From assembly GCF_003473485.1 (NCBI RefSeq), contig NC_053042.1, positions 1,624,501-1,688,500 of the forward strand: 64,000 nt of DNA. The letters are read 5' to 3'. Source of the stretch: Medicago truncatula (taxonomy: Eukaryota; Streptophyta; Magnoliopsida; Fabales; Fabaceae). Both the position numbers and the translations under genes were made by a program. Positions 30,988 through 62,147 of this stretch are shown here, in pieces (position 1 is the stretch's first letter; every line of letters starts with the position of its first letter). Under the pieces are notes generated by a model, which was not told the origin of the DNA, made no database searches, and was given only the letters and a program-made list of their open reading frames with translations.

Positions 30988-31851
30988 TTACATGACGACC
31001 AAGAGCGAAGCTAAGCACATCACTGCTCCAACAAAACCTATAACAATCCTTGAAGAGCTGCTAGTAGGTGCAGCATCGGCAGCAGCCTCATCGCCACCTG
31101 GACCGGGAGCCAAAGATGGGCTTTTTGCAGGGGCTTCAACGGGAGATTCGCTGGGCTCATCGGAAGGTGAAGGAGAATCTGAAACTTCTGTGATGGGCTC
31201 TTCAGCAGCCGAAGGAGCGTTTGCATTCTTTGCCTTTGTCGGCGGTGCTTTAAAAACCGAAGAAACATCTACATTCGTTTCGGCTGCTGGAGCGCTTGCA
31301 TTCGATGGTGCACCCAAGGTTTGTGTTTCAAGTCCAGGGAACAAGATAGGTTTCGCGACTTGGATTATGGTGATGTTGTAGGGCTGGGCGAAAACAACTT
31401 TCACTAGCTTAACGTCGATTGGAGCACCACTCACAGCAGATCCAATGGCCAAATCACCGTCACTAGTGCGATTAACCTTAAGGTACCCTTGTTGGTCGAC
31501 GGCGATGCCTGAGGATTGGTAAAGGGTGGTCAAGGGTTCGCGCTTATGCATAGCTCCAATGAGCTTCGTTGGATCGTAATAGTCGAGGAGCACGTGGGTG
31601 GCCATGATAGCCCTAATAGCTTCTGGCATTTTGTCGGATACGGAAGACATGGCGCCGTTATCAAGGGCGAAGACGGTGATGGTATTACGACGGTTGATTT
31701 GGCCAACAAGCTTGGTTTCGTTGAGGTATTTGTTGAAGGTGGAAAACTCAGGGGTTCTATCTAGCAATTTTTGGATGTCAAATGCATGAATGGAAGAAGA
31801 AACTGTAAGGAAGAGAGCCAAGCAAAGAAAAGACAAGCTTTTGAAACCCAT
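30988..31851 (-). CDS. Fasciclin-like arabinogalactan protein, array copy 1
   Basis: A single-exon gene encodes 287 aa. FLAs are secreted cell-surface glycoproteins combining FAS1 adhesion-like domains with Hyp-O-glycosylated AGP modules. Here a signal peptide (1-23, ending SIHA) precedes one FAS1 domain (about 24-172), with an H1-like NTITVFALDNGAM at 56-68, a THVLLDYYD segment at 85-93, and an H2-like YNITIIQVAKPI at 158-169. N-glycosylation sequons are at N44, N127, N159 and N184. Residues 180-262 are rich in Ala-Pro, Ser-Pro and Thr-Ser, the AGP module. An SSSS stretch and hydrophobic tail (about 268-287) form a GPI-anchor signal. The single FAS1 domain plus GPI signal resembles Arabidopsis FLA3/5/14, several of them pollen-expressed; that orthology is inferred. 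It is the leftmost of five direct tandem copies. Confidence 0.93.
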   Translation of the reverse strand: MGFKSLSFLCLALFLTVSSSIHAFDIQKLLDRTPEFSTFNKYLNETKLVGQINRRNTITVFALDNGAMSSVSDKMPEAIRAIMATHVLLDYYDPTKLIGAMHKREPLTTLYQSSGIAVDQQGYLKVNRTSDGDLAIGSAVSGAPIDVKLVKVVFAQPYNITIIQVAKPILFPGLETQTLGAPSNASAPAAETNVDVSSVFKAPPTKAKNANAPSAAEEPITEVSDSPSPSDEPSESPVEAPAKSPSLAPGPGGDEAAADAAPTSSSSRIVIGFVGAVMCLASLLVVM

Positions 31852-31916
31852 CTTTTCTTTAGGATATTATGCCCGAAAACCAAGACTGCCTTGAGAATTG
31901 ATAAAATTATGAGGGT

Positions 31917-31927
31917 GTTTATATATG
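31917..31927 (-). promoter_or_regulatory. TATA box of FLA copy 1
   Basis: CATATATAAAC on minus lies about 66-76 bp before the ATG, giving an expected leader of 35-45 nt. The same box at the same distance precedes copies 2-4 (about 40078-40089, 47073-47084, 54141-54153) and lies about 105 bp before the ATG of copy 5 (62251-62262). Confidence 0.75.
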
Positions 31928-31988
31928 TTCCCTACTATGTGTAATTAAGGATTAGTTATTTTGATGTTTGTCTTTCAAATCCATTTTT

Positions 31989-32228
31989 GTCATCGTGAGA
32001 TGTGAACCTCTCTCTATGCAGCTATTTTACGACAAGTTTGAATGGTTTAGCATGGTTTTCACTTTTTTATTTTATTTTTCTTTTCCTCTTTTCCTGGTTT
32101 AGCATGGTTTTAGATTAAAAATATCAAAATCAATATTTGAAGAAATCCATTTATGTCATGGTGACATGTGAACCTCTCTCTATGCAACTACTTTATGACA
32201 AATTTAAATGGTTTAGCTTGGTTTTTAG
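31989..32228 (-). promoter_or_regulatory. Duplicated upstream module of FLA copy 1
   Basis: A ~73-bp block containing GTGAACCTCTCTCTATGCA, then TTTTA-GACAA, then AATGGTTTAGCWTGG (plus-strand reading) occurs at about 31989-32060 and again at 32154-32228. The block recurs upstream of every FLA gene in the array, so it is the best candidate for a shared cis-regulatory element. Confidence 0.7.
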
Positions 32229-32313
32229 TGTTTTTTGTGATTTTTCTTTTCATGGTTTAACGTGGTTTTAGATTAAAGAAAAAACAAAATGGAAAACGAT
32301 GTGCATATTATTA

Positions 32314-32603
32314 AGGGTTAATAGTGTTTTTCATCCCTGTAATATATGTTATTTTTGGTTTTTGCCCTTATAAAATTTTCGGTTTGATTTGCACACTCGT
32401 AAAATTTTTATTTTTCGGAAAACACCCTTAATAGGCCATTCAAAAACCAAAATTTCTTGAAATTTTTTTTTATGAAAATGGCCTATTAAGGGTGTTTTCC
32501 GGAAAATAAAAATTTTACGAAGGTGCAAATTAAACCAAAAATTTTACAGGGGCAAAAACCAGAAATGACATATATTACAGGGGTGAAAAACACTATTAAC
32601 CCT
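32314..32603. mobile_element. hAT-like foldback MITE (290 bp)
   Basis: Long near-perfect inverted repeat: AGGGTTAATAGTGTTTTTCA at the left and TGAAAAACACTATTAACCCT at the right, pairing almost to the centre. TATTATTA flanks both sides (8 bp, shared border base). The paralogous stretch upstream of FLA copy 2 (about 40301-40320) reads ATATTATTAATTAGATAG with no insert. A second family member is at 56.7 kb. Confidence 0.9.
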
Positions 32604-33744
32604 ATTATTAATTAAATAGTACAATTAAAATAAATCAATTAAAGCAAAATTATAAAATTTAAATGACACTTTTTCGGAGACAATTCTTCACGCCGATGTG
32701 TTGATATTATGGTACAAAAATATTTTTAGTGTATCAAGAGATCAAATACATCAGTCCATGTATATTATTTTTTTTGTCTATTAGTCATTAAGACTATTAA
32801 ATTTTATTTCTAAAATAAGAATGTTAAATTTAGCAGTCAAAATTCATAATTAACAATAATAATTTGATAGTGTATATATATATGTATGAGATGGAATAAC
32901 ACTTGTTAGTTTTTTAAAAGTAAATCTGATCCCAAAAATTACAAACAGGATTACTGTAATGTGATATTATTGCACCATGATTGTCCAATGTCTTCTAAAC
33001 AATTGAAGATTTAACCACAATTCCACAAACTGATATCAATTGATTTCACATCATACAGCAATCTGAACCCATTAATGTCAATAAAGAGTCAAAGGATAAA
33101 AATAAACTACGCTACTTTGTTTCATGTGCTCTCATTACAAGTTTTTTTTGGAAACAATATGAGCCATTGGATCAATTAATTATAACGGTTGATCCAATGG
33201 TTAATTACACTTATATTTAAATACAACTTTTTTTAATACACCGATAAAATAAAAATTAAAAAAATATATATACTTTTTTTTTAAAGAAAAAAGTATAGCA
33301 ATATTTGTATTAATTATTTGTATTAATTATTTTAGTATATATATATATATATATATATACTTCAAAAGAATTTATTTAATATATAAGGGTGGATCGAAGC
33401 CCTGTTCTAAATAAATATTAGATATAATGTAAGAATATTCTTTTTTATCTTTTCACCAATAACTGATCGTCTCAATAAAACATCTTGACCAAAAAAAATT
33501 GTGTTAATAAAACATAAATGTTGATTGAGTATGAAAAAGGAAAATTAAATATTGTTAGAATGATCAAGTATGATGATGCACATGATTATTAATAAGACAT
33601 AAATGTAGTCCATTAGATTAAGATAAAACTAATGGTGGGGATGTGGAGTAACTCTTGGAGTCAAAATATCCCTCCCATATATATATATATTAAAGGTTAG
33701 TTTTGTAAATTTGTTTTTAAACATGTAAACAACGTTTTAATGAA

Positions 33745-33928
33745 GAGAAATGATATTTGTACAACCACTTTCTCACAACTTTTTAACAACTTTCTTTCTC
33801 ATACTCACATTATCCTCTTATTCTCCCTCTTCATTTTTCTCTCTCCATTTGTTTTTTACCTATGAAAAGAGAGAAAATATAAGTTGTCACAAAAGTTATC
33901 TCATATGGTTGTTCAAATAACACTACCC
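33745..33928. mobile_element. MULE-type MITE with 9-bp target duplication
   Basis: TTTAATGAA occurs at 33736-33744 and 33929-33937. The termini GAGAAATGATATTTGTACAACC and GGTTGTTCAAATAACACTACCC are imperfect inverse complements. Nine-bp duplications are the Mutator-superfamily hallmark. A relic with related interior lies near 21730-21790. Confidence 0.85.
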
Positions 33929-34694
33929 TTTAATGAAATTCCCCATCACTGTTTCTTCTTGGATCATTGTCGTAAAGCCAAGAAGATTTTTCTAGAAACT
34001 GGTACAACCCTGGAGCTTGTGTTCTTAATTTTAATTGTAATTATATGTCGAAAAAAGTCACAAAAGCATTCACATGGAAGAAAAAAAAGACATTACTCTA
34101 ATTCATTCCAATCAATTTTCAATTATAGCACGAATAAAATAGACATTGAAATTTGTACCCAAAAAATACACTAGTGATTAATTGAAAAGATTTTTAAGGG
34201 AAATCAAAATGATGAAACGAAGCAAGAACTGGTTGTTAAATGTGGTTACATGGTTTCCTCAAAAAAAAAAAAAAAAAAAAACGTGGTTACATGGTTTGAC
34301 GTAAATAAACTGCATAACCCAAAACTTAACGAGAAACGGTTACATGGTTTTTAATGCACCAATTGATATCAACTAATGACTCCCTACTTAAAAATAGGCG
34401 CAGACCATGTTGTTTTACACGGAAAGACACAAAAAGGCTTACTCATTTGTTGATTTACACGGTTACGTGGTTACAAATTACAATTGATATCAACAAGATG
34501 CTCTTGGTTTTAGAGGTTCTTCTATAAAAGATAATTTGGTTTGAAGAGTATTCGCTATCTTGTAAATGTTACAAGCTTATCCTGTTTTTAATTAGTGAAA
34601 ATTTTGATGGATTTTTCTTTGGGAACTAGACGTAGACCATGTTGTTTTAGGCCGAATCAGAATAAACCTTTTTGTGTCTTTCCTCTAATCCCTT

Positions 34695-35130
34695 TGTTGA
34701 ACCAAAATGAGTTTTGAACAATGCATCTGAAGTTTTGATAATAACAAAGTATAAAAGAACAATTAGATATGTTAATGTGTGTTCAAGTAAGCAGGATCAT
34801 AGTATTAAATTAAGTTTTGATTCTAAAAGAACAAGATTCTAAGAACACTTAAGAGCATTTGAATTTTGAGAGAAGCTGAAGTTTTGGATCAGACTCTGAA
34901 GGATACAAGCCTCTAAAGAACTGAGACATTGAAGACCTGGACTCTGAATAAGTGAAGCTTCTTAAAGACTCTGACTTCGAAAGCCACGTCAGTATTAGTA
35001 GACTATGATCAGTTCTGTCATCTTCTGAAGAGGTCACTATCAGACTCAGATAGCACAGTTTACCCTCTTCTGACCATGTGCACAAACAAACAAAGAATTT
35101 CAAGGACAATTGAAATGAAGCATATAATTT
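34695..35130 (+). mobile_element. Ty1/copia (SIRE-like) LTR fragment
   Basis: It starts TGTTGAACCAAAATGAG and contains GAAGTTTTGATAATAACAA, GTGTTCAAGTAAGCAGGA and repeated CTCTGAAG words. It aligns with the segment starting at 59310. A TTTTGATGATAAC ... TCAAGTGTGCAGGA order is typical of SIRE/Maximus LTRs. The 3' end is not found, so it is truncated or decayed. Confidence 0.6.
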
Positions 35131-38626: not shown

Positions 38627-38821
38627 ACATTTGAGAACCAATAAAAATGCCCAAATCCATGTGGAAAATTAATGGTTGGAACATTTTGTGTCTACACTTT
38701 ATTACATTCCTATCAAATCGTAAAGCTAACATCAAAAAAGAAATTTATTCCGTGGCCAAACTTTATTTACATACCTTTAATTTGTAAGCACAAACACCAC
38801 AATTATAATATACAATATCAC

Positions 38822-38824
<3 letters not shown>

Positions 38825-38882
<58 letters not shown>
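38825..38882. repeat. (TA)n microsatellite, 58 bp
   Basis: Pure TA dinucleotide, about 270 bp beyond the 3' end of FLA copy 2. TA arrays occur in related spacer positions at 30574-30605, 43842-43861, 52018-52040, 52247-52284 and 52939-52961. Confidence 0.95.
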
Positions 38883-38886
<4 letters not shown>

Positions 38887-39149: not shown

Positions 39150-40013
39150 TTACATAACGACCAAGAGAGAAGAGAAGCACATCACAGCTCCAACAAAACC
39201 TACAACAATCCTTGAAGAGCTGCTAGTAGGTGCAGCATCGGCAGCAGCCTCATCACCACCTGGACCAGGAGCCAAAGATGGGCTTTTTGCAGGGGCTTCA
39301 ACGGGAGATTCGCTGGGCTCATCAGAAGGTGAAGGAGAATCTGAAACTTCTGTGATGGGCTCTTCAGCAGCCGAAGGAGCGCTTGCATTCTTTGCCTTTG
39401 CCGGCGGTGCTTTAAAAACCGAAGAAACATCTACATTCGTTTCGGCTGCTGGAGCGCTTCCATTAGATGGTGCACCCAAGGTTTGTGTTTCAAGTCCAGG
39501 GAACATGATAGGTTTCGCGACTTGGATTATGGTGATGTTGTAGGGCTGGGCGAAAACAACTTTCACTAGCTTAACGTCGATTGGAGCACCACTCACAGCA
39601 GATCCAATGGCCAAATCACCGTCACTAGTGCGATTAACCTTAAGGTACCCTTGTTGGTCCACGGCGATGCCTGAGGATTGGTAAAGGGTGGTCAAGGGTT
39701 CGCGCTTATGCATAGCTCCAATGAGCTTTGTTGGATCGTAATAGTCGAGGAGCACGTGGGTGGCCATGATAGCCCTGATAGCTTCTGGCATTTTGTCGGA
39801 TACAGAAGACATGGCGCCGTTATCAAGGGCGAAGACGGTGATGGTATTACGACGGTTGATTTGGCCAACAAGCTTGGTTTCGTTGAGGTATTTGTTGAAG
39901 GTGGAAAACTCAGGGGTTCTATCTAGCAATTTTTGGATGTCAAATGCATGAATGGAAGAAGAAACTGTAAGGAAGAGAGCCAAGCAAAGAAAAGACAAGC
40001 TTTTGAAACCCAT
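39150..40013 (-). CDS. Fasciclin-like arabinogalactan protein, array copy 2
   Basis: Single exon, 287 aa, with the same layout as copy 1: signal peptide 1-23, one FAS1 domain to about 172, Pro/Ala/Ser AGP module, and C-terminal GPI-type hydrophobic tail. Residues 1-169 are identical to copy 1. All seven amino-acid differences lie beyond: L170M, A185G (the sequon becomes NGS), T205A, N211S, I271V, L280F and A281S. Its upstream region has a single copy of the shared module (40151-40224) where copies 1, 3 and 4 have two. The ATG at 40013 sits about 65 bp downstream of the TATA box. No disabling change is seen, so it should be functional. Confidence 0.93.
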   Translation of the reverse strand: MGFKSLSFLCLALFLTVSSSIHAFDIQKLLDRTPEFSTFNKYLNETKLVGQINRRNTITVFALDNGAMSSVSDKMPEAIRAIMATHVLLDYYDPTKLIGAMHKREPLTTLYQSSGIAVDQQGYLKVNRTSDGDLAIGSAVSGAPIDVKLVKVVFAQPYNITIIQVAKPIMFPGLETQTLGAPSNGSAPAAETNVDVSSVFKAPPAKAKNASAPSAAEEPITEVSDSPSPSDEPSESPVEAPAKSPSLAPGPGGDEAAADAAPTSSSSRIVVGFVGAVMCFSSLLVVM

Positions 40014-40150
40014 CTTTCCTATCTGATATTATGCTCCAAATCAAATCTGCCTTGAGAAATTGATAGGATTATGAGGGTGTTTATATATGTTCTCTGCTAT
40101 GTTTAATTAAGGTTTAGTTATTTTGAGGTTTGTGTTTCAAATTCATTTTT

Positions 40151-40224
40151 GTCATCGTGACATGTGAACCTCTCTCTATGCAGCTATTTTATGACAAATG
40201 TGAATGGTTTAGCTTGGTTTTTAG
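40151..40224 (-). promoter_or_regulatory. Single upstream module of FLA copy 2
   Basis: The proximal half resembles module 1 of the other genes (TCGTGA, ATGCAGCTATTTTA) and the distal half resembles module 2 (GTTTAGCTTGGTTTTTAG, then CATGGTTTAACGTGG). This chimaeric look suggests deletion between two modules by recombination rather than an original single copy. Confidence 0.55.
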
Positions 40225-40476
40225 ATTTTTATGTTATTTTTCTTTTCATGGTTTAACGTGGTTTTAGATTAAAAAAAACAAAAACAAAATGGAAAACGAT
40301 GTTTATATTATTAATTAGATAGTATAATTAAAATAAATCTTATAAAGGAAAATTGAAAAATGTAAATGACACTTTTTTCGGAGACAATTCTTCACGCGGA
40401 TGTGTTTATGGTACAAAAATAATTTTAGTGTATCAAGAGATCACATACATCAGTACATGTATACTATTTTTTTTGT

Positions 40477-41406
40477 GAGTTTTTCTAATTACACTCTGTT
40501 TAATCCTGGTTGCACCTCAAAATGACAAAATTACCTTTCCATAAAATTAATTTTCAAAAAGCATCTTCCTTTTTTCTTGGTTACACCCTAAAATCCCTCT
40601 TCAGTTTAAGTAGGTCATGTAAACTTAGTTTTAGTAGGTCATGTAAACTGAGTTTAAGTGTACATACTTAAACTCAGTTTAAGTAGGTCATGTAAACCGA
40701 GTTTAAGTGTACATTTAAAAGTTCAACCTTGTTCAATGATTCTACGTAATCTCAATTTAAGTACGTACATGTAAACTTATTTTAAGTAGGTCATGTAAAC
40801 TAAGTTTAAGTGTACATACTTAAACTCAGTTTAAGTAGATCATGTAAACTGAGTTTAAGTGTACATCTAAAAGTTCAACTTTGTTCAATGATTATACACG
40901 TAATATCAGTTTAAGTATGTACATGTAAACTTAGTTTAATTAGGTCATGTAAACTGAGTTTAAGTGTACATACTTAAACTCAGTTTAAGTAGGTTATGTA
41001 AACTAAGTTTACATGAACCTACTTAAACTGAATTTAAGTTAACCTCAACAATGTAAAACTGAAACTCTCGTACACTGCAGTTGAACAAGAAGAAGAAAAT
41101 TGAAACCATCGTTATTGAAAAAGAAGAAAAAATTCACTTATTTATATGCAATCGAGTATGAATGAAAGATGTTTTGATTCACTCTTTAATCTTCCATATA
41201 GATTAATTGAACATCAGGATTGTTTGATCGTTGGTGGGTGAAAGAGAGTGTAATTTTAGAGTGACAATGCATGAAATCAAGATTTTAAGAAAATTTATAT
41301 AAAAGGACAATTTTGATATTATCAAAAACTTTTTAAAAAAACTGAGTGTAACCAGAAATATATAGGGTGTGAATAGAAAAAGTTAACTTTTTAAAAAGAC
41401 TAATGA
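40477..41406. mobile_element. TIR element filled with palindromic tandem repeats
   Basis: Ends: GAGTTTTTCTAATTACACTC with CTGGTTGCAC on the left; GAGTGTAACCAG with GTGAATAGAAAAAGTT on the right, imperfect inverse complements. The core (about 40600-41045) repeats TTTAAGTAGGTCATGTAAAC and its complements many times, so either strand folds. TTTTGT and CTTTGT flank it. The equivalent site upstream of FLA copy 1 (about 32769-32789) is uninterrupted. Confidence 0.75.
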
Positions 41407-43185
41407 CTTTGTCTATTAGTCATTATGACTATTAAAATGTTAAATTTAGTGGTCCAATTTGATTGGTTTAGCATGGTTTTCACTTTTTTATTTTAGAGAG
41501 AGAGGAAAGAGGAGAGAGGAGAGAGAGAGAGAGAGCTGACCCCAGGGTCTAAATGGAAAAACATCGACAAACATCCACTCCCTTAAAAATAGGTATGCGA
41601 AGAATATGGATACAATGACGGATCTAGAAATTTCTACTAGTTGGGAGCTAGATAATATATATAAAAAAATTATACAAAAACGTAAAAATGCATAAGTCAT
41701 AAAATAGTCGCATTAATCATCGTTACAAAAGTGGAAATCACAACTATATCATTATACATCTATAAAATTAAACACACTTCAAAATTTCCTTTAGTTTTTT
41801 TGACAAATTCAAAATTACTATTAGTCGTGTCTCTATATTTAAAAAAATGTTATATAATTTTTTATTTTTAATATTATAAAAAATATCTCTCTTTGTATAT
41901 GATAAACGATCATTAAACATTTCATCTTTTATACCATTATGCATTTAATTCTTTACTTATAAAATATTTAATATTTTCGTGGGGCCAACACAAAATATTT
42001 AGTTGAATAAGAATAAGAAATGAGGTAGTGGGGGAAACTTCCCCCATTTTCATACATGTGTCCTTGCATGCGTAGATGAGGGCTTAGCAATCTTCTTTAC
42101 AAGTATAATTTTGCCCTCAACTCAATCTAAATGAGGATGGCTTATATCGAAATGTATATCTTATATGACAAGGCGATTTGAGGTTGTAACTCAATCTACA
42201 AGGTATTTACACACATTAATGATGACAGGTGATGGTCGATTTAGAAAGTCTACTTAATTGTCGTCAAACAACAATACTTAGATTAGTTCGTCTCCACGTG
42301 GATAGTGAAGTTTCTATTAAACAATATCAATCGTAATAAGGATGTGTAAATTTTGCATTTAAAGGTACTCAACAAATTATATGGTTCAAGAAGTTTATAG
42401 TGAAGATCCTTTAATTAACCTAATCAAAGAGAAATTTGCTGGACATAAAGAGAAAAATAAATAACATGGAAATTAAAATAACCATGATGATGTTGCTTCT
42501 CAATTCTTCTTCTTCTTCCTCTTTGTATATAAGCGTGTGCTGCTTGTTACCCACAAAAGTCTTAATTTTTTTGGGGTCAGCCAATAAAGCCAAATAACCC
42601 AAATAATTTCATGCGCAATCGATAATTTCAGAAAATGGATGTGCACGATCTAAATCTTCTTCTATGCATCCTGTATGAGGTAGTAGCTGAACACTTCCAA
42701 TTTCTTCACAGCTGCTTGACGTGCAACTCATAGCACGTATCGTGCAACAACTAGTAGCTGAACTTTCTACTTTTCGTCTTTCCTTGTCTCATTTTTCTCT
42801 ACCGAAATGTTCATGGTGACTATACCCCAAGAATTCAATTGATATATCTTGTAAGAAAGTATATCAAGACCACATAATTGTTTGTTTTGGGTGATTTGAC
42901 ATGTTTTAAGATCTTGTATGCTTAATAGCTCTTCCATGCTCATCAATTGATTTATTATGGGTCAACAATGTGGCAAGTAATGTTAGTGTCGGTGCTTAGT
43001 TATTCTAAGCCTATAAATACCCATTGTAAAGATATTCAACACACATCAAATCAAACAAATATTTACATATACTTTTATCATTCCTTTATCGCTTTCCTTT
43101 ACTTTATTTTTGTCTTTTTAGGTAATAGTTCATCCTTCCACACTAGACGTTCTTTGAAATACTCTAGGAACCTGGTGAACGAAAT
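41407..43185. other. Spacer between FLA copies 2 and 3, left part
   Basis: 41730-42120 repeats the block at 35540-35920. 42908-43180 repeats 50895-51310 (CTTAATAGCTCTTCCATGCT, TTCAACACACATCAAATCAA). No gene is recognised; short frames here have no domain. Confidence 0.55.
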
Positions 43186-44111: not shown

Positions 44112-45420
44112 TGAGTCAATAATTAGTGTTTTTAAGTGGTTATTTAAGTTTATTTTATTTAAATTTTATGTGTTTTTATTTACTTTCTAGAACTATTTTA
44201 CTACAATTGCTTGTTAATTAATTTCAGGAAGAAATATATGAAAGATTGAGTCTTGGAGCAAAAGAAAGGGTTTTGAAGCATGATTTAAGGATAAAAGGAT
44301 CTTGAGCATGATTTGGAGCTGATTGAAGACAAAAATATGAAGATCCTGCACAAAAATATCAGACACAGCCCGTGCCTGTGGTGACACAGCCCATGCCTCC
44401 AAGTTATCAAATATATGCACAAGTCAGAGAGGGGCACACGGCCCGTGCCTCCAGCTACACGACCGTGTGCGACTGTGCCAACCCTTTTGCTGCTTTTGCT
44501 TCCTGATCTAGCTGCCTTTTAAGTGTAATTCTGACCTAAAAGCTCATGGTTTCTTGTGGAACATTCTATTGATGTATTTCTTAGGGCTTAAGTTAGTTTT
44601 AGGCTATAAATAGAGCAGCTAGCAAACATATATTTTCATCTTTTGTTCTTGGAAATTATAAGTGACAATTGTTTCTTAGAATAAAAGTTCTCTTTATTTT
44701 ATTGTTATTTACTTTTATGTTCTTATTCTTCTTCTTCTCTATGTTTACAATAAACATGAGTGAGTAGACTTCTTTGTCTTGGGATTGTTGGATGAGTCTA
44801 ATGACCTAATCCCTATCAAACCAAGCCTCGAACCCTAATTTTATGTAAATTTATTTTCTAATCTATTTCACCGTTTTTCTAATGAAATAACAAGTATTAA
44901 TCGAAGGACCGAAAGGTGAAGTTTAATAGTTGTTATTTCATCATCACAAATATCAAGTGAAGGATCGAAAGATGAAGTTTGATATTGGAACAAGTGAAAT
45001 TAGACAAGGATTGTGAAACATGAGAATAGTCTAGCAAACCTTGAGACAATAAAGTTTCGTTCTTAAAGGGTTTCAATAGCAATCAATCATGAGAATAAGC
45101 GTGGTTGCTATTGAAATACATTCATTGAGACCGAAAGGAGATATGAAAAGCCAAAGAGAAACTTGTCTTTAGAAAATAGGTCTAACGTAAGATTCTAGGT
45201 TTAGGGTTTGGGTTGTGAAAGATTTATCACCAAAATGAACCAATAATCCCAATGCGCTTTTTATTATTATTATTTTCAATCGATAAAAATCCCAACTTTT
45301 CAACCTTAATTCTTCGGCTAATTTTACTTAAAAAGAATATCAATTGAACAACTCCCTGTTAGAACGATATTTTATTTTTACTACTTCGATAAACCGTCCA
45401 CTTGCAGATTTACCCCATCA
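44112..45420 (+). mobile_element. Solo Ty3/gypsy (Athila/Tat-like) LTR, ~1.3 kb
   Basis: It begins TGAGTCAATAATTAGTG and ends ACTTGCAGATTTACCCCATCA. Internal CACGGCCCGTGCC and ACGACCGTGTG words and an AGGCTATAAATAGAGCAGC promoter-like box are typical of legume Tat/Athila LTRs. No second LTR or internal region is present. The paralogous spacer at about 52428-52450 reads straight through, GCAAATAGAATTTGCAAGCG, which is the empty site. Possible 5-bp duplication AATCT / AATTT. Confidence 0.85.
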
Positions 45421-46146: not shown

Positions 46147-47010
46147 TTACATGACAACCAAGAGTGAAGCGAAGCACATCACTGCTCCAACAAAACCTAC
46201 AACAATCCTTGAAGAGCTGCTAATAGGTGCAGCATCGGCAGCAACCTCATCACCACCTGGACCAGGAGCCAAAGATGGGCTTTTTGCAGGGGCTTCAACG
46301 GGAGATTCGCTGGGCTCATCAGAAGGTGAAGGAGAATCTGAAACTTCTGTGATGGGCTCTTCAGCAGCCGAAGGAGCGCTTGCATTCTTTGCCTTTGCCG
46401 GCGGTGCTTTAAAAACCGAAGAAACATCTACGTTCGTTTCGGCTGCTGGAGCGCTTGCATTAGATGGTGCACCAGTGGTTTGTGTTTCAAGTCCAGGGAA
46501 CAAGATAGGTTTCGCGACTTGGATTATGGTGATGTTGTAGGGCTGGGCGAAAACAACTTTCACGAGCTTAACGTCGATGGGAGCACCACTCACAGCAGAT
46601 CCAATGGCCAAATCACCGTCACTAGTGCGATTAACCTTAAGGTACCCTTGTTGGTCCACGGCGATGCCTGAGGATTGGTAAAGGGTGATCAAGAGTTCGC
46701 GCTTACGCATAGCTCCAATGAGCTTCGTTGGATCGTAATAGTCGAGGAGCACGTGGGTGGCCATGATAGCCCTGATAGCTTCTGGCATTTTGTCAGATAC
46801 GGAAGACATGGCGCCGTTATCAAGGGTGAAGACGGTGAGGGTATTACGACGGTTGATTTGGCCAACAAGCTTGGTTTCGTTGAGGTATTTGTTGAAGGTG
46901 GAAAACTCAGGGGTTCTATCTAGCAATTTTTGGATGTCAAATGCTTGAATGGAAGTAGAAACCGTAAGGAAGAGAGCCAAGCAAAGAAAAGACGAGCTTT
47001 TGAAACCCAT
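46147..47010 (-). CDS. Fasciclin-like arabinogalactan protein, array copy 3
   Basis: Single exon, 287 aa, same domain order as the other copies. It is the most changed of the four young copies in the signal peptide and FAS1 domain: S19T, H22Q, I58L and A62T relative to copy 1, the last two within the H1-like motif. It shares H102R, P106L, T108I and A256V with copy 4, so 3 and 4 are sister copies. Private changes also include L179T and T263I. Start chosen at ATG 47010, matching the others; upstream in-frame codons contain no ATG. Sequons N44, N127, N159 and N184 are kept. Confidence 0.92.
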   Translation of the reverse strand: MGFKSSSFLCLALFLTVSTSIQAFDIQKLLDRTPEFSTFNKYLNETKLVGQINRRNTLTVFTLDNGAMSSVSDKMPEAIRAIMATHVLLDYYDPTKLIGAMRKRELLITLYQSSGIAVDQQGYLKVNRTSDGDLAIGSAVSGAPIDVKLVKVVFAQPYNITIIQVAKPILFPGLETQTTGAPSNASAPAAETNVDVSSVFKAPPAKAKNASAPSAAEEPITEVSDSPSPSDEPSESPVEAPAKSPSLAPGPGGDEVAADAAPISSSSRIVVGFVGAVMCFASLLVVM

Positions 47011-47145
47011 CTTTTCTTTCGGGTTTATTGTCGAAACCAAGACTGCCTTGAGAATTGATAAGATTATGAGGGTGTTTATATATGTTCTCTACTATGTTTA
47101 ATTAAGGATTAGTTATTTTGAGGTTTGTGTTTCAAATCCATTTTT

Positions 47146-47380
47146 GTCATCGTGAGATGTGAACCTCTCTCTATGCAGCTATTTTATGACAAGTTTGAAT
47201 GGTTTAGCATGGTTTTAACTTTTTTATTTTATTTTTCTTTTCCTCTTTTCCTGGTTTAGCATGGTTTTAGATTAAAAAAAAAATCAAAATTTGAAGAAAT
47301 CTCATTTATGTCATGGTGACATGTGAACCTCTCTCTATGCAACTATTTTATGTCACGTTTGAATGGTTTACCATGGTTTT
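47146..47380 (-). promoter_or_regulatory. Duplicated upstream module of FLA copy 3
   Basis: Module 1 at about 47146-47218 and module 2 at 47309-47380. Module 2 here has TGTCACG where the others have TGACAAA, and ACCATGG where they have AGCWTGG, so it is diverging faster than module 1. Confidence 0.65.
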
Positions 47381-47399
47381 GACTTTTTTATGTTATTTT

Positions 47400-48429
47400 T
47401 CTTTTCATGGTTTTAGATCCAAAAAAAATGGAATTTTTTTTCTCACCTTCTTGTGTTTTTCTCACCTTGACCTTTTATCTCCTTAAATTATTTTACCTCG
47501 CCATCTCTATTTTCCTGATTTGTTTTAACTTTTTTTATAAGCTCTTTATTTTATTTGGTTAAACATTTTTTCAAGTGCTTATTTTTAAAACGTCTTAAAG
47601 AACACAATTCACGTTCATCTTGTGTGTTGAAGTCATTTGTTCAACAATATGGCCTTTATGTTCACTCTTGTTTCAAAATGAGAAGTGTAGATTTTAACAT
47701 AACATGTGAGGTCTTCTAAAAAAATATAAGAGGAGAGTAGAACCCCAATTTTATTCCTAAGTAAGCGGATTTGTTACTAGACTTTATTTACCTTCCCGTC
47801 AAACCTTGAATTACCAGAGTCTCATTCCCATAAGAGCCAAAACGTTAACGATGGGGTTTATCAAAGTGACAACAATCTTGATCTTTTCAAAATACTTCTC
47901 CTTGATCACCTATGGAAGCTTGAAGCAAGTTGTTTGATTTCATAAACATATTTGAAAAAACATAAAACATATCTGGAATTTTCATAGCACTTTCGGCCAC
48001 CTAGAGAGCCACCACAGACCACCGTCGACTAGTTTTCCAGTCACCACTTCCAGCCACCTATAACATGCTTAAGAAAAGAATACATTAGATTTATGTTCTT
48101 CATTGTGAGATCTTTCTATTGTTCTAATTCTTCTTGCATTTCGGGGCACCTTCGCCAGAGAGCCACCGCACACCACCGCCGGATGGTTTCCGGTCGAAAT
48201 TAAAAAGCAAAAGTGAAAATAAAATGAGATAGTGGTATCCTTTTTAACTCTTTTGGAAAAAATTGAGACAATGGTATCCTTTTTAATTCTTCTAGAAGAC
48301 AAAAAAAAGGACAACAAGTTTGATGTTAGTGGTGGTGTGGCATGAAGGAGAAAGAATAGTGTTGGATCAGCAGCCGTTTGTGGGTGAGTGGTGGTGAGTG
48401 TTGGAATAATATTTGGCGTTAATTTTTTT
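47400..48429. other. FLA copy 3 distal upstream spacer
   Basis: 47685-47860 is paralogous to 56095-56133 joined to 57248-57400 (GTAGATTTTA, ATAAGAGG, CAATTTTATTCCTAA-type blocks), with the MULE-like element absent here. Near 48000-48200 a CACCGCCGG / GCCACC-rich stretch has no clear frame. Confidence 0.5.
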
Positions 48430-50200
48430 TATATATATAAGAAAGGAGAGTGGACACACATCAAGAGGCAACATCAATATCCCAACTAGGTTGGTACCCC
48501 GATAAATCTCCATCCTACACCGCCAAACTCTAAAAATTTATTTAAAAAATGGGAAAAAATACAAAGGAGGGGGAACTAGGCCAAAACCCTCCAAAATAAA
48601 ACAGAAAGCAAGAAAAGAAAGAAAAAACCTAAAAATAACCCAAAAACAAGCTATGAAAATCTGTAGTTGGGAAAACCACATATATCCCTAAAGAAATCAA
48701 CATTCAACTCATTAGGGGAGAGAAGACAACCAAACCATCCATGAATTGAATGACCCATGTTAGCTAATTTATCCACACAGCAGTTACCTTCTCGGTAAAT
48801 ATGAGATGAACCAAACTGTAATCCAAGACTCTAACATTCCAATAGAGGAAATTCATTGAGTCGTCAGATGGTTATCACCCCGAGCACAAGTTTAAGTGGG
48901 CTGCTTTGCGAAGACTTGTTGCAATTTAATTTTTTGTTTCTGCTCCCTTGTTAGTACCGGCATTAAGTCTTCCGCATCTGACCTTTTATCATATTCACGA
49001 ACTCGGACCCATAAATATAGGCCGTGTTGAATGTTCTTGCTAGGATGTACTTCTTGCTTTTGTAAAACGACAACCTCTTGCTCCTCTGGAATTGTCATGG
49101 GCATGCTAGCTGCAAGAGGGTGCTCTACCACAACCGGTGACAACAAGGAGGGGCGTGACCCAGAATGTACCTCATAATGGTCAACAAGAGTATCTGGCTT
49201 AACCTGGACCGATTCTACAGACACCTCATGCACCTCAATGTGCTCAATAGGGGATGAATGTGGTACACGCTCGTGGGAACCCTTGGGACTCTCGACCAGC
49301 TCCCGCGGGCTCGAACTATTGTGTTCCACATCATCATAAAGCGTAACAGTGACATCATCCACCGTGGGGTTCCCCAACACCTCCCGCGATGTCAGATGCA
49401 ACTGTTCTACTCTCTCAAAATGCGCGTCAACGTGCTCAATAGGGGAAACAATATCTAACATTGGCATAATACGTGGCAACTCCTCATGAGAAATTTTGTC
49501 AAACACATTGAATGAATTTGACGACAAAGGCGGAACGGACACGGGGACGTCCATCTGAGAAGTAGCCACTGCTGAAGTAGCAATAGAAACCGTCTCCATC
49601 TATGAAGTAGAAGCTGGGATGTCCAGAGTAATGGAAGCCAGTGATGTAGTAGATGCAATAACTGGTATTCTTTGAGTGGTGGTAACTGTTGAAGCAACCG
49701 GAATTGGAACCCATGTCCAAGTTATACCATTGGCTGAAGTAGAAGCACCCACGTCATTGTTCTGCCAAGCTGGTTTAGGGGGGGCTGCTTCGGCAATAAC
49801 AATTTGTTTCCCTCGATCATTCTTGTCCTTTGGTGGTTGTGGATGTAACCAACGACAAGTGGAGACATTGTGCCCAATAGCGAAACAGTGATGACAAAAC
49901 AACGGTCTCCGCTCATATTGAACCTCCACTTTGAAAGCGAAGCCATCTCTCTCAACAAGAATTTCATCATAAGCTCTCTTTGAAAGATCAATGTTAACTA
50001 AAATTCTTGCGTAATGGCCAAAGGTACGGTTTCGTGTCGGTCCATCAATGTCAATCGGGGTACCCACCACACTTGCTATTTCCTTCAAAATTCTCTCCTG
50101 CCAATATTCCTGCGGTAACTCTACGAATCGAATCCAGAGTGAAGCATGGGTCTGTTTCTGAGCAAGGTACGTATTTGAAGTCTTTGGTCCATTGTGATAA
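48430..50200 (-). pseudogene. L1-type LINE with most of ORF2 deleted
   Basis: Minus strand, 5' to 3'. An ORF1 protein with the plant DUF4283-like region (LWIRFVELPQEYW, TFGHYARILVNIDLS) and a CCHC knuckle, CHHCFAIGHNVSTC, sits at about 49908-49949. It is split by an in-frame TAG at 49600-49602 and runs on to 48892. ORF2 starts at ATG 48856 with the endonuclease opening MNFLYWNVRVL. After about 35 nt the sequence jumps to the RNase H-like tail (HIYREGNCCVDKLANMG, about 48742-48806) in another frame. A LINE 3' UTR follows, with GGGGTACCAACCTAGTTGGG, and an AT/A tail near 48430. Endonuclease, reverse transcriptase and zf-RVT are all missing. Confidence 0.85.
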
Positions 50201-50216
50201 CCTTAATAAATGGTGA

Positions 50217-52242: not shown

Positions 52243-52289
<47 letters not shown>

Positions 52290-53214: not shown

Positions 53215-54078
53215 TTACATGACGACCAAGAGTGAAGCGAAGCACATCACTGCTCCAACAAAACCTACAGCAATCCTTGAAGAGCTGCTAGTAGGTGCAG
53301 CATCGGCAGCAACCTCATCACCACCTGGACCGGGAGCCAAAGATGGGCTTTTTGCAGGGGCTTCAACGGGAGATTCGCTGGGCTCATCGGAAGGTGAAGG
53401 AGAATCTGAAACTTCTGTGATGGGCTCTTCAGCAGCCGAAGGAGCGCTTGCATTCTTTGCCTTTGCCGGCGGTGCTTTAAAAACCGAAGAAACATCTACA
53501 TTCGTTTCAGCTGCTGGAGCGCTTGCATTCGATGGTGCACCCAAGGTTTGTGTTTCAAGTCCAGGGTACAAGATAGGTTTCGCGACTTGGATTATGGTGA
53601 TGTTGTAGGGCTGGGCGAAAACAACTTTCACTAGCTTAACGTCGATTGGAGCACCACTCACAGCAGATCCAATGGCCAAATCACCGTCACTAGTGCGATT
53701 AACCTTAAGGTACCCTTGTTGGTCCACGGCGATGCCTGAGGATTGGTAAAGGGTGATCAAGAGTTCGCGCTTACGCATAGCTCCAATGAGCTTCGTTGGA
53801 TCGTAATAGTCAAGGAGCACGTGGGTGGCCATGATAGCCCTGATAGCTTCTGGCATTTTGTCGGATACGGAAGACATGGCGCCGTTATCAAGGGCGAAGA
53901 CGGTGATGGTATTACGACGGTTGATTTGGCCAACAAGCTTGGTTTCGTTGAGGTATTTGTTGAAGGTGGAAAACTCAGGGGTTCTATCTAGCAATTTTTG
54001 GATGTCAAATGCATGAATGGAAGAAGAAACTGTAAGGAAGAGAGCCAAGCAAAGAAAAGACGAGCTTTTGAAACCCAT
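53215..54078 (-). CDS. Fasciclin-like arabinogalactan protein, array copy 4
   Basis: Single exon, 287 aa. It carries the copy 3/4 signature (H102R, P106L, T108I, A256V) on an otherwise copy 1-like FAS1 domain, plus its own F171Y at the end of the H2-like motif and V270A in the GPI tail. The signal peptide is the ancestral form ending SSIHA. The sequons match copy 1. TATA box at 54141-54153, about 65 bp from the ATG. No disabling change is seen. Confidence 0.93.
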   Translation of the reverse strand: MGFKSSSFLCLALFLTVSSSIHAFDIQKLLDRTPEFSTFNKYLNETKLVGQINRRNTITVFALDNGAMSSVSDKMPEAIRAIMATHVLLDYYDPTKLIGAMRKRELLITLYQSSGIAVDQQGYLKVNRTSDGDLAIGSAVSGAPIDVKLVKVVFAQPYNITIIQVAKPILYPGLETQTLGAPSNASAPAAETNVDVSSVFKAPPAKAKNASAPSAAEEPITEVSDSPSPSDEPSESPVEAPAKSPSLAPGPGGDEVAADAAPTSSSSRIAVGFVGAVMCFASLLVVM

Positions 54079-54214
54079 CTTTTCTTTCGGATATTATGCC
54101 TGAAACCAAGACTGCCTTGAGAATTGATAAGATTGTGAGGGTGTTTATATATGTTCCCGACTATGTGTAATTAAGGATAAGTTATTTTGAGGTTTGTCTT
54201 TGAAATCCATTTTT

Positions 54215-54454
54215 GTCATCGTGAGATGTGAACCTCTCTCTATGCAGCTATTTTACGACAAGTTTGAATGGTTTAGCATGGTTTTCACTTTTTTATTTTA
54301 TTTTTCTTTTCCTCTTTTCCTGGTTTAGCATGGTTTTAGATTTAAAAAAAATCAAAATCAATATTTGAAGAAATCCATTTATGTCATGGTGACATGTGAA
54401 CCTCTCTCTATGCAACTACTTTATGACAAATTTAAATGGTTTAGCTTGGTTTTC
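54215..54454 (-). promoter_or_regulatory. Duplicated upstream module of FLA copy 4
   Basis: Modules at about 54215-54287 and 54382-54454, spaced as in copy 1 and nearly identical to it. Confidence 0.65.
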
Positions 54455-54738
54455 ATTTTTTTTTATGGTTATCGCGGTTTTAGATTAAAAAAATGGAAAA
54501 TGATGAGCATATTACTAATTAGATACTAAAATTAAAATAAATCATCCTTAAAAAAATTAAAATAAATCAATTAAAACAAAATTGAAAAATTAAAATGAAA
54601 TTTTTTCCGTAGACAATTCTTCACGCAGTTGTGATGATGTTATGGTACAAAAAGATTTATAGTGTATCAAGAGATGAAATACCTTAGTTATTCGATGTAT
54701 AATTTTTTTGTCTAGTTCAATGTAATATAGTCATTAAG

Positions 54739-54906
54739 ACTATTAAATGTTATTTTTGTTGGTTACTTTTAATTTTGTTTTAATTGATTTATTTTAATTT
54801 TACTATCTAATTAATAATATGCACATCATTTTCCATTTTGTTATTTTTAAATCTAAAACCACGTTAAACCTTGAAAAAGAAAAATAACAACTATTAAATG
54901 TTATTT
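54739..54906. repeat. Inverted fragment of FLA promoter between 17-bp direct repeats
   Basis: ACTATTAAATGTTATTT occurs at 54739-54755 and 54890-54906. The 134 bp between them, read in reverse complement, gives CAAGGTTTAACGTGGTTTTA, then AAAATGGAAAATGATGTGCA and ATTAATTAGATAGT. That is the region just distal to the upstream module, but closer to the version at FLA copies 1 and 2 than to the one 300 bp away in copy 4. Confidence 0.8.
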
Positions 54907-57256: not shown

Positions 57257-57754
57257 CTATAAAAAAAACATAAGAGGGGAGAAGAACCGGAATTTTATTC
57301 CTAACTATAACCATTTTTACCATACTTTACTTACATTCGAGCCGAACCTTGGATACTAGTCTCATTCCTCAAGGAACGAGAGTGTTAACATAAGGGAGAA
57401 AAATGTAATTCATATTTCTCTTATAAAAATATAATTTTATCTAATATGTTTTGCATAATTGAGAAGAAGAGTGTATATTTTGACCTTAAAAGGAGAAGAT
57501 AATACTCTCCTCCATTTAAGTTTGTTCATTTTTTTTCGTACAAAGGTTTGATGAATGTTGTTCCTCCATACGTCTCAAACTATTTGGCACTCCAACCAAA
57601 AATATATTTTATTTTGTATGTGTCTATTTTTTTTTCTTTGAGGAAAAAAAATGATAAGACTTTTTTATTAAAAAAAATAAATGATAGACTTTTCTTTTCA
57701 TTTTTGGTAATACCTATTTTTCTTAATATGAGAGAAAACCGCCCTTTGTTTTTC

Positions 57755-57975
57755 ATAACTAGTGCCCCGGAGGCACTAGTTAACATTTTCCGTCTTGTTA
57801 ACTAATGCCCCCGGAGCACTAGTTAAGGAAGTTAAATATAGAAAAAAAATTATTGGAAACACCAATTTTTTTACTTTTAAAAAGTTAAATACTCACGTTT
57901 TCACAATTCTCAATATAATATTTCTAATTTTGTGCTCTTAACTAGTACTTCGGAGGCACTAGTTAACATTTCTCA
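57755..57975. mobile_element. MITE with palindromic AACTAGTGCC...GGCACTAGTTAAC ends
   Basis: ACTAGTGCCCCGGAGGCACTAGTTAAC at the left is followed closely by a second such palindrome (57798-57827). ACTAGTACTTCGGAGGCACTAGTTAAC is at the right. Member or near relative of the family at 26-28.6 kb; the double left palindrome suggests two nested or overlapping copies. Confidence 0.5.
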
Positions 57976-58229
57976 ATAAAAATAATTGAATTTCGTAAAT
58001 TTTAGGAGTCAAATCCATAGTAAATGAGTTGTTGGATTATTATTTTTTATGGAAATAAGCTTACCACATTTCATTCATAATAAGAGTATAAATACATCAT
58101 GTATGCCAACAAAAAGTTGTAAACTAGCATACCATAAGGCTAACCTAGATAAGATATAAGCAACACCGTTGACTTGTGATAAGCCATTTAATTATATGCC
58201 TTATATTAGAATTTTAGGTATAGTTTCCA

Positions 58230-60290
58230 TATATTGGGCTATAATTTTTATTTAGGCCCATACCTTGAGGAGGCCCAGTTTCATTGAGTGATTTGCACAC
58301 CCCAAAGTCCGACCTAACTATGAACTACTGTTTTGGAGTCCATCACAAAATCCGTGTTCACCAAATGAATGTCCCTAGCACATTGAAAGGCTAATAAAAG
58401 ACCAAGACCTTCTCCCCTTTCTACGTCAAGTAATGGTGCAATCCTTTCCATTTTGGTGAGCTGAGCGCAAACCGCCCCTCCTCATCACGAATGCAGATTC
58501 GAATATCGACTTTATTAAGTGAATGGGAAAAGGAGGCATTCACATTGCATTTATAACGACTTACACTTGTTTTATTCCATTGCACTTGTTCCCCACAACC
58601 CGTTGGACTTGCCCTTGTGTTGCGAGTAACTTGAGCATTCTGCCAGTTGGTTAACAGATGTCTTGGTTATTTTCACATTATTCCACACTTTGTTATTTCA
58701 CTCCAAAAAGTGACACCTAATATTTTCTTTTGCTTGACATATACAATTTTAAGAATAGCAAACATATTTGCAACACATGAGGTAGCAGAATGTAGTACAT
58801 GCAGAATGGTGTTACATAAACCTATACCCTGCCTGCACCTAATGCTTTTGGTACAACCTAAAAACACATTGGTTCAATCTTCATCTTTCTCTGTACAGAC
58901 ATCACATACAGTGGGACATCGTAGTCCTCTGTTTTGTAGATGCAATCTAATCATTAAGCATTTGTGATAGACTGTCCATAAGAAGTTCTTAATGTTCGAT
59001 CGGCAGGAGTTTGATTTTCCAAATAATGCTCCAATAACCTGCCACTTTATGCTGAAGAGAGGCATTGTCATTGTTAATAATGTCTTGGTATGCGCTCTAC
59101 TGGGTGCTTACCATCTTTCTCAAACCTCTAAGTATCCAAATCTTGCCGAACCGAGGACAGCAGCGGCGTGTTGTAAATTTTCCTAGTCGTGTCTTTGTCG
59201 AACATGTAGTTGATGAATCTGTATTCCAATATTGCTTGGTGTTAGGCCACAACAAATGCGATATTGTTAGTTCGTTCCACATGGTATATAATGTCGTTGA
59301 CGGAGTAATATGTTGAATCAAAATGGGGTTTTGTACAATGTCTCCAGAGTTTTGATGATAATAAGGTATAAGTGAACAATTGGATAGGCTAATATGTGTT
59401 CAAGTGTGCAGGAGCATAGAATTAAATTCATATTATCAAATCAAGTTTTGATTATGAAAGAACAAGGTTCTGAACATATATAATAGCATCTGAAGCAAGT
59501 GAGAAGCTGAAGACTTGGAACAAAGTTAGAAGAAAAATCAACCATAAGTCAACTTTTGGATCAGAAGCATCTGAAGAAGCAGAGCCTCTGAAGTCCTCAA
59601 GCATCTAAAGCCCTACCAGCATCTGAAGCCTCTAACCAATTTGTCGTCTTCTAGAGAAAGATCGCTTTCAGCCTCTGAATAGAGTGTAGCTTGTCTCTTT
59701 TTGACCACACGCATAAACAAACAAGAAATTTGAAGGACGAAGAGGATCTCGACAAGAGGAATACACTGATCAAATATGAATGTATAGATTGAAGTAATGA
59801 TTTGATGAGAACCTATCTCCCTGCTTGTAAGTGGCAACGACTACTCCATTAATTAATCTTATCCTAATTCTATCTTTTACAACAATGAAGGTAGCCTTTT
59901 TACTTCTTCAAATCATAGATGGAAATCCCAAATACTCGCATGTCCAAGAACTTGTTAAACCCGCAATGTATTTGCAATTAACTCCCGAATGTTGCTTCAC
60001 ACGTGGCTAAAATATTCATTATTGCTACCGCCTTGCTTTCACATGCTCCAGAGAAGAGGAAGAAATCATTCGCAAATAATAAATGTGACATGACTGATAC
60101 ATTTTTCAAATAAGAGTGCCATGAATGTCGCCTCGACCTTATGCATCATGAATCAAGGCGGACAATCCCTTCGCACAAAGGATGAATATATAGGGTGAAA
60201 TCGGGTCACCCGGGTGAAGCCCTCTACCGGGAATGATAGGTTCCACTAGTGTTCCATTCACCATCTTTGTAAACAGTGATTATTTTCAAT
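58230..60290 (-). pseudogene. Degenerate LINE ORF2 (RT, zf-RVT, RNase H), interrupted by a copia LTR
   Basis: Minus strand, 5' to 3'. Reverse transcriptase core: VNGTLVEPIIPGRGLHPGDP and SPYIFILCAKGLSALIHDA at about 60160-60270, then SHLLFANDFFLFSGAC at about 60048-60095, where the catalytic FADD-type motif reads FAND. zf-RVT block: IKNFLWTVYHKCLMIRLHLQ, then CPTVCDVC, at about 58880-58990. RNase H-like block: RYKCNVNASFSHSLNKVDIR, then RDEEGRFALS, and FVMDSKTVV at 58310-58560. Stops and frameshifts separate the blocks. A dead, old insertion. Confidence 0.8.
59310..59800 (+). mobile_element. Ty1/copia (SIRE-like) LTR fragment inside the LINE relic
   Basis: It begins TGTTGAATCAAAATGGGG, then AGTTTTGATGATAATAAGG, TGTTCAAGTGTGCAGGAGCA and many CATCTGAAG / CTCTGAAG words. 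It aligns with 34695-35130. It separates the RT part of the LINE (right) from the zf-RVT and RNase H parts (left), so it inserted into the LINE. The 3' end is not clear. Confidence 0.65.
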
Positions 60291-61340
60291 ACATATTGAG
60301 TGCTAGTATACACTTTCACAATAAGTAAATAAAGAGCAAGTAGAGTGTCGATTCCGTTAAGATTGAAGTGGTTAAGTTCTGTGTATTTCCAAATGCTAAG
60401 TTTAGTTATTCAAAATCCAAAATGACAAATAACAAAGATAAGAATTTAAGGCTTTAAATAAACTAAAGTAAAACACAGAAGTAAATAATTATTTGCACAA
60501 TTAGCGTGCCACTTCAACGTTTTAAACCCGTCAAATGACATCATTAGGGTTCATTTCCAAAGAATTTTTATATTGCAGAGTTGGATTTCCAAAGTTTTTT
60601 TTACAATAGGTAAACCGAAATTCGCTCATATTGCAAGGCGATAAACAATAATTAACCCTAAAAAACTATATTGACATATAATGCAGTTCACATTTGTAAA
60701 AAACTGAAGAAGATATATAGGAAAGATGGCTAGACTGTGGAGAAGAGGATGAAAGGGAGATGTGCTGCTTAGTGCGTGAAGAACAAGATGAAAGGGGGAA
60801 TAACATGAAATTGAGAGTAAATTAAAATATATAATGAGTAACTTGGTATTCAAGGCTTGTGTGATATGTGTTTTGATTGAGTGTGTGGTGGAATTCGACG
60901 GATTGGTGGGATGAGGAGGTAGAAAATTTCTTATCGTTCAACTCTATTGTGAAAGGGAGCAAAATGAATAAGGTATCGCATTTATTTTTGTTATCAACAT
61001 ATTGGTATTTAGTTAAAAAACATTGCATGCAGAGAAAATGTAGAGAAGGGAAAAAATCAAATTTAATATCAAGAGAACAATGAAAAACAAAAATAGAAAA
61101 TGAAATAAGATTGAAAACCTCAATCCAAATATATGATCATATCATATATATTTTTTCCATTAAACCGTCACGAATACTAAAACAAACTAGACTTTGATGT
61201 AATTGACAAATAGTTTCAATAACAACAAGCCCTAGCTTGTGCTTTTTTTTATTTTTTTATTTAAAGGATCCACCTTCCTCTTCGTGTATTATTACAATTA
61301 AAATGCATAGACTATTAAACATTGTGTTTTCTGCATCACT
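60291..61340. other. Spacer between FLA copies 4 and 5
   Basis: 60690-60900 (GGCTAGACTGTGGAGAAGAG, TATTCAAGGCTTGTGTGATA) is paralogous to 43860-44020 and 52285-52420, placing copy 5 in the same repeat system. The 3' flank of copy 5 lacks a ~25-bp TTTCATGTTTCAAAAAACCT segment present in copies 1-4. Confidence 0.55.
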
Positions 61341-62147
61341 CTACATAACGACCAAGAGAGAAGCGAAGCACATCATTGCTCCAACCAAACCTACAACAGT
61401 CCTTGAAGAGCTACTAGGAGGTGGAGCATCGGCAGCAGCCCCACCTGGGCCTGCAGCTTCGGCTGTTGGGGCTTCAGCGGGAGCATTGGTGGCGGGCTCT
61501 TTAGAAGGTGAAGGAGCAGTCGCGGACTCTGAAGGAGTCTCAGCTGTGGGAGCATCAGCTTTAGCAGCCGAAGGAGAGCTTGCATTCTTTGCCGCAGTTG
61601 GAGCGCTTGCAGTAGATACTGAATCAACTCCAGGGAAGATGATAGGTTTGGCAACTTGGAGAATGGAAATGTTGTAAGGCTGTTTGACAACGGTTTTCAC
61701 AAGGGCAACGTCGATTGGAGCACCACTCACAGCAGATCCAAAGTCCATCTCACCCTCACCAATGAGTTTAACCTTAAGGAACCCTTGTTGGTTCTTGGCT
61801 TGGCCTGAGGCTTGGAAAAGGGTGGTCAAGAGTATGCCACTGCCCACAGCTTCACTGAGCTTCTTCTCATCGAAATAGTCGAGGACCACGTGGGTGCTCA
61901 TGATAGCCTTGATAGCTTGTGGAGATTTCCCGGATATGGCAGACATGGCGCCGTCACTGACGGCGAGGACGGTGATGGTATTGCGACTGTTGATTTGGTC
62001 AACAAGCTTGGTTTCGGTCAGTTGTTTGTTGAAGGCGGCAAAATCAGGATTCTGACCTAGCAATTTTGTGATGTCAAGTGCATGAATGGAAGAAGAAACT
62101 GCAAGGAAAAGAGCCAAGCAAAGAAGAGAAGAGCTTTTGAAACCCAT
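61341..62147 (-). CDS. Fasciclin-like arabinogalactan protein, array copy 5 (divergent)
   Basis: Single exon, 268 aa. Signal peptide 1-23 (SIHA), FAS1 domain about 24-173 with NTITVLAVSDGAM at 56-68, THVVLDYFD at 85-93 and YNISILQVAKPIIFPG at 158-173, then an AGP module about 178-244 and GPI-type tail about 249-268. Compared with copies 1-4 it is shorter in the AGP region and has many FAS1 substitutions. It lacks the sequons at N44 and N127, keeping N159 (NIS) and N188 (NAS). The TVLA form of H1 is closer to the FAS1 consensus than the TVFALDN of copies 1-4, suggesting this copy keeps the older state. ATG 62147; there is no ATG in the short upstream extension. Confidence 0.92.
   Translation of the reverse strand: MGFKSSSLLCLALFLAVSSSIHALDITKLLGQNPDFAAFNKQLTETKLVDQINSRNTITVLAVSDGAMSAISGKSPQAIKAIMSTHVVLDYFDEKKLSEAVGSGILLTTLFQASGQAKNQQGFLKVKLIGEGEMDFGSAVSGAPIDVALVKTVVKQPYNISILQVAKPIIFPGVDSVSTASAPTAAKNASSPSAAKADAPTAETPSESATAPSPSKEPATNAPAEAPTAEAAGPGGAAADAPPPSSSSRTVVGLVGAMMCFASLLVVM

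Follow-up and report, generated by a model that had tools for sequence, protein, structure and literature searches.

In a 64,000-base stretch of the Medicago truncatula genome (the window; C1:1624501-1688500 of a genome of 429,922,655 bases in 42 contigs), five genes for fasciclin-like arabinogalactan proteins (FLAs) follow one another on the minus strand. The locus raises the question of whether the copies are interchangeable, so that the array just raises expression, or whether the encoded protein changed before it was multiplied.

Arrangement and identity of the five genes

The five open reading frames are intact and, in the open reading frame list of the window, lie to the base where a preliminary description had placed them (Table 1). 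The spacing, which it had put at about 7-8 kb, measures 8162, 6997, 7068 and 8069 bases between successive copies from F1 to F5 (7.0-8.2 kb). All five proteins begin with a hydrophobic stretch, followed by a single FAS1 domain, a proline-rich tail carrying Ala/Ser/Thr-Pro glycomotifs (11 in F1-F4, whose tail has 113 residues, and 9 in F5, whose tail has 95) and a hydrophobic C-terminus; the hydrophobic ends, visible by eye, are a putative signal peptide and a putative C-terminal GPI signal. By these sequence features F1-F5 are single-FAS1 FLAs, apparently free of introns, and their single-exon status is read from the uninterrupted frames. F3 scores slightly below the Pfam cut-off for FAS1 although it is 97% identical to F4.

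Table 1. Positions of the genes and promoters within the window. Bit scores are against PF02469 (FAS1), whose curated cut-off is 22 bits; promoter motif positions are counted from the ATG.
Feature	Position	Strand	Description	Basis
RPA32 (replication protein A 32-kDa subunit) gene	450..4221	+	left end of window	exons picked by eye
F1 (FLA copy 1)	30988..31851	-	287 aa	ORF; PF02469 25.8 bits
F1 promoter	31852..32300	-	block of ~150 bp twice (motif at -161 and -327)	promoter comparison
F2 (FLA copy 2)	39150..40013	-	287 aa	ORF; PF02469 25.7 bits
F2 promoter	40014..40290	-	block once (motif at -161)	promoter comparison
F3 (FLA copy 3)	46147..47010	-	287 aa	ORF; PF02469 20.9 bits
F3 promoter	47011..47420	-	block twice (-159, -323)	promoter comparison
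F4 (FLA copy 4)	53215..54078	-	287 aa	ORF; PF02469 24.1 bits
F4 promoter	54079..54480	-	block twice (-160, -328)	promoter comparison
F5 (FLA copy 5), read as the conservative copy	61341..62147	-	268 aa	ORF; PF02469 22 bits
F5 core promoter	62148..62350	-	motif once (-200), conserved with F1-F4	promoter comparison

Searching the plant's own 430-Mb genome with the F4 protein gave 11 matches, namely the five array copies (100, 97, 97, 96 and 63% identical) and six paralogs (24-41%). No match outside the array thus exceeds 41% identity, and tblastn with F4 and F5 turned up no additional FLA fragment in the window; on these two results chance is excluded as the source of the arrangement. The copies are same-strand neighbours with low Ks, and no other close copy was returned from the genome, as in a recent tandem array. 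The nearest paralog outside the array is a 260-aa single-FAS1 FLA on C3 (C3:53711592; locus L014, 5001-5783), with a FAS1 domain that has no N-glycosylation sequon. F4 had no match among PDB sequences at E 0.01, and an AlphaFold model of F4, computed from the five window copies, had a mean pLDDT of 33.7 and was not used to map the FAS1 changes.

Near-identical coding copies at regular spacing can also come from mis-assembly, in which haplotypes or collapsed repeats are set side by side. However, what the spacers have in common is limited to scattered, diverged pieces, their insertions differ, every copy has private differences and the contigs are 45-59 Mb long, all of which argues against an assembly duplicate and makes an artefact very improbable. 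This is a real tandem array within a known family, and its extra feature is a burst of FAS1 change. Our search of the literature on the FLA family, mostly of papers available without subscription, found no paper describing it.

Several other elements were seen in the window. Two minus-strand segments between copies, 48892-50202 and 58874-59107, match DUF4283 above its cut-off, with zinc knuckle and zf-RVT matches below theirs, and are likely retrotransposon debris that we would class as LINE-type. A dispersed repeat (12250-12699 and 44978-45420, 74.5% identical) has one of its copies within the array. A minus-strand frame of 120 aa at 9327-9689 has no Pfam match; we take it to resemble flowering-promoting factor 1.

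To which branch of the family the array belongs is suggested by its neighbour. The joined exon pieces of the gene at the left end of the window match RPA_C (6e-13) and PF01336 (OB fold, 2e-10), which identifies an RPA32 gene. In Arabidopsis, FLA3 is given as AT2G24450 (PMC10152678) and RPA2A as At2g24490 (PMC10363097). With an RPA32 gene beside the array and two Arabidopsis genes so close in number, a conserved neighbourhood is likely and the five genes are probably co-orthologs of FLA3, an orthology drawn from neighbour gene numbers. The preliminary description had proposed FLA3/5/14-type genes, possibly of pollen; its family guess, and hence the pollen role, gains strength from the RPA32 neighbour, by which such a role appears likely. 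The array might instead derive from another single-FAS1 branch (FLA14- or FLA5-like, for instance) and work outside pollen, for example in roots, and the C3 paralog is equally a candidate relative of these genes; but the RPA32 neighbour speaks against this origin, which we consider improbable.

Copies 1-4 as a young and mosaic group

Copies 1-4 had been described as only a few residues apart, and they differ pairwise at 7 to 15 of 287 positions. Their Ks values of 0.029-0.067, with frames intact, bear out the recent local amplification that had been proposed, and pairwise omega is 0.20-0.59, with branch-model values of 0.25 for FAS1 and 0.33 for the whole coding sequence. These four copies are thus young, intact and held by purifying selection. 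Between F5 and F1-F4, Ks is 0.23-0.25 and Ka 0.234-0.241. At substitution rates of 6.1e-9 to 1.08e-8, the Ks values date F1-F4 to roughly 1-6 million years and their separation from F5 to roughly 11-20 million years.

The shared promoter and 3' flank attributed to all five genes are real for copies 1-4, with copy 5 sharing the core promoter. This core of roughly 200 bp upstream of the ATG is common to all five copies and includes ACATATATAAACACCCTCA. The flanks of copies 1-4 are close over 150 bases on the 3' side and 300 bases on the 5' side (F2 less so), with diverged pieces beyond. The F4 promoter matched nine places in the genome, all of them inside the array, and with the C3 paralog there are only short matches of 10-24 bases, so that no promoter is clearly shared with it. 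Some 1.45 kb upstream of F2, a 38-bp piece (41458-41495) matches a stretch of the F4 promoter at 97% identity and could be the relic of a second promoter block; given this piece and its single block, F2 may represent either the state before block duplication or a later loss. There is also a minisatellite of nested 24-, 49- and 152-bp units at 40601-41045, ~0.6 kb upstream of F2.

The preliminary description had paired copy 1 with copy 2 and copy 3 with copy 4. Its named residues, 102, 106, 108 and 256 (coding bases 305, 317, 323 and 767), do separate the copies in this way, as do five of the eight two-against-two sites in the coding sequence, the other three supporting F1F4|F2F3. The promoters group differently, however: all five upstream sites are F1F4|F2F3, the two downstream sites are split between F1F2|F3F4 and F1F3|F2F4, and the proposed pairing accounts for 6 of the 15 sites over coding sequence and flanks. 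When the coding sequence is polarised by F5, three derived bases are common to F1 and F2 and two to F3 and F4, and trees of the copies are weak (support 49-81). The relationship is therefore mosaic and not tree-like. Sequence exchange between copies is a likely reason, for which the statistics are suggestive only (lowest permutation p in pairwise exchange tests 0.08, for the F1-F4 pair; runs test on the 15 sites, p 0.051).

Change in the FAS1 domain

F5 differs from F1-F4 at 57-59 of 150 FAS1 residues. Under a branch codon model of the whole coding sequence, in which the two-ratio fit was run from several starts, the branch joining F5 to F1-4 has an omega of 1.19 and the branches within the four have 0.33 (p 0.0006). 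The corresponding values are 1.52 and 0.25 for FAS1 (p 0.003) and 0.75 and 0.37 for signal peptide plus tail, the last difference not being significant (p 0.15). Neither for the whole coding sequence (p 0.41) nor for FAS1 (p 0.18) is the long-branch omega significantly different from 1, and the bootstrap FAS1 Ka/Ks of F4 against F5 has a median of 1.32 and a 95% range of 0.81-2.28. Replacement in FAS1 between F5 and F1-4 ran at a rate close to neutral or higher (Ka/Ks of about 1 or above), and adaptation is not proven.

These values bear directly on the view of the array as dosage amplification alone, with interchangeable copies, which goes back to the dosage or expression amplification suggested in the preliminary description. 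F1-F4 are nearly identical and intact, are under purifying selection and share a promoter core, all of which would agree with it, and the recent amplification itself stands. But the number of promoter blocks varies among copies, F5 differs from F1-F4 at the many FAS1 residues counted above, and dosage alone leaves a FAS1 burst of this rate unexplained; as a complete account we hold it to be unlikely.

Branch-site tests on all FAS1 codons gave 2dlnL of 14.95 with five taxa and 9.22 with seven, the latter with the F1-F4 stem and F5 as foreground. No null simulation reached these values, among 54 run for the first and 51 for the second. Among the 67 differing FAS1 codons, however, 7 differ at all three bases, 12 at two and 48 at one, the last comprising 9 synonymous and 39 nonsynonymous changes. 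Leaving out the three-base codons brings p to 0.083 and 0.139, and on single-base codons alone it is 0.42 and 0.41. The signal fades without multi-base codons, and multi-base mutations could therefore produce it; it is the codons changed at more than one base that carry the evidence for Ka/Ks above 1. Fits with the stem alone or F5 alone as foreground gave large omega values with saturated outgroup branches, and were not relied on.

The change is unevenly placed along the protein. Between F4 and F5, nonsynonymous change affects 75 of 346 sites in FAS1 and 37 of 135 in the AGP/linker tail. The signal peptide has changed at 2 of 52 sites and the GPI signal at 5 of 58, and FAS1 exceeds these two signals pooled (7/110) with Fisher p 1e-4. 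Within FAS1 the excess of nonsynonymous over synonymous change peaks at residues 95-142 in a 48-codon scan (p 0.026) and at 103-132 in a 30-codon scan (p 0.047). F1-F4 have N-glycosylation sequons at 44 and 127 that are absent from F5 and from the two nearest paralogs, and a sequon at 159 is common to all five copies.

It may be, then, that the ancestor of F1-F4 drifted under relaxed constraint after the first duplication, without adaptation, and was later fixed and constrained again. A long-branch omega not significantly different from 1 and the non-significant result from single-base codons would be consistent with this. Set against it are the conserved signal peptide and GPI signal with no frame broken, the all-codon branch-site statistics beyond every null simulation, and the clustering at residues 95-142. 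We regard relaxed constraint as a serious possibility, if a somewhat less than even one.

As to the side on which the change fell, five paralogs from the same genome polarise 58 differing FAS1 positions, placing 34 on the F1-4 side and 11 on F5, with 13 undecided. Relative-rate tests with single paralogs gave p 0.056, 0.059, 0.041, 0.51 and 0.41, one of the five being below 0.05. In a protein tree of 11 first-FAS1 domains the F1-F4 stem is 0.416 long and the F5 branch 0.146, and F5 is closer than F4 to all six of the paralogs. Given the longer stem and the nearness of F5 to every paralog, F5 is best read from these comparisons as the conservative copy, and F1-F4 as descendants of a faster-evolving ancestor. 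The statement that copy 5 is clearly older thus holds by Ks, but the protein difference arose more on the F1-4 side. In codon models with the two nearest paralogs, equal omega on the stem and F5 gives p 0.96, and the stem omega is distinguishable from that within the four (p 0.039 and 0.032); because these nearest outgroups are saturated, such models do not allow the excess to be apportioned between the stem and F5.

A proposed history and its relation to known FLAs

The best explanation, which we hold with moderate confidence, is a five-copy array of FLA3 co-orthologs in which a burst of FAS1 change came before a fourfold amplification. A single-FAS1 FLA gene near RPA32 would have duplicated locally; one daughter, F5, would have kept more of the ancestral FAS1 domain, and the other would have accumulated many FAS1 replacements without losing its signal peptide, GPI signal or core promoter. 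This changed gene would then have been amplified to F1-F4, now under purifying selection and probably with some sequence exchange. The genes may be expressed in microspores or pollen and their products, GPI-anchored and decorated with arabinogalactan, may sit at the surface of the developing pollen (intine, cellulose deposition), where four copies would raise the dose of the modified version beside the conserved one. According to a review, raised dose of FLA3 is also harmful: overexpression impairs Arabidopsis fertility, and RNAi gives aborted pollen with thin and uneven intine (PMC11802600). Extra dose is therefore not trivially harmless.

A further step, that the FAS1 change in the F1-F4 ancestor was adaptive (densest at 95-142 and with two new sequons) under a conserved pollen-type promoter before the fourfold amplification, seems to us doubtful. 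If true, the array would be a lineage-specific, positively selected pollen-surface FLA, perhaps arising from pollen competition or pistil contact, and would offer a natural experiment on recognition by plant FAS1 domains. Here the FAS1 change stands by itself, set between a conserved copy and an amplified changed form with the same promoter core and the same signal peptide and GPI signal, and comparing F5 with F1-F4 could reveal which FAS1 residues matter; FAS1 domains have been named as what differentiates FLA functions (PMC10152678). Should the change prove neutral, the array is a young tandem array of the ordinary kind.

Among known FLAs, Arabidopsis FLA3, a group C member that acts in pollen and its intine, is by description like the array in its single FAS1 domain, arabinogalactan motifs and C-terminal GPI signal (putative in the array), and in having an RPA32/RPA2A gene nearby; it differs in that five copies are present here, the comparison being by description and gene number. 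Pollen-specific FLA14 (AT3G12660) is likewise described as a group C FLA involved in pollen intine (PMC11802600), but no neighbour-gene link between it and the array locus was found in this comparison by description. In the main text of a soybean FLA paper (PMC12732659) the word 'tandem' is absent, as are 'Medicago' and 'legume' from that of a 13-species survey (PMC6514703). This survey, which covers tandem and segmental FLA duplicates, presents tandem duplication as an established route of FLA expansion, as seen in the array. With a single exception its duplicate pairs are reported to have Ka/Ks below 1, whereas the comparison of F5 with F1-4 reaches about 1 here.
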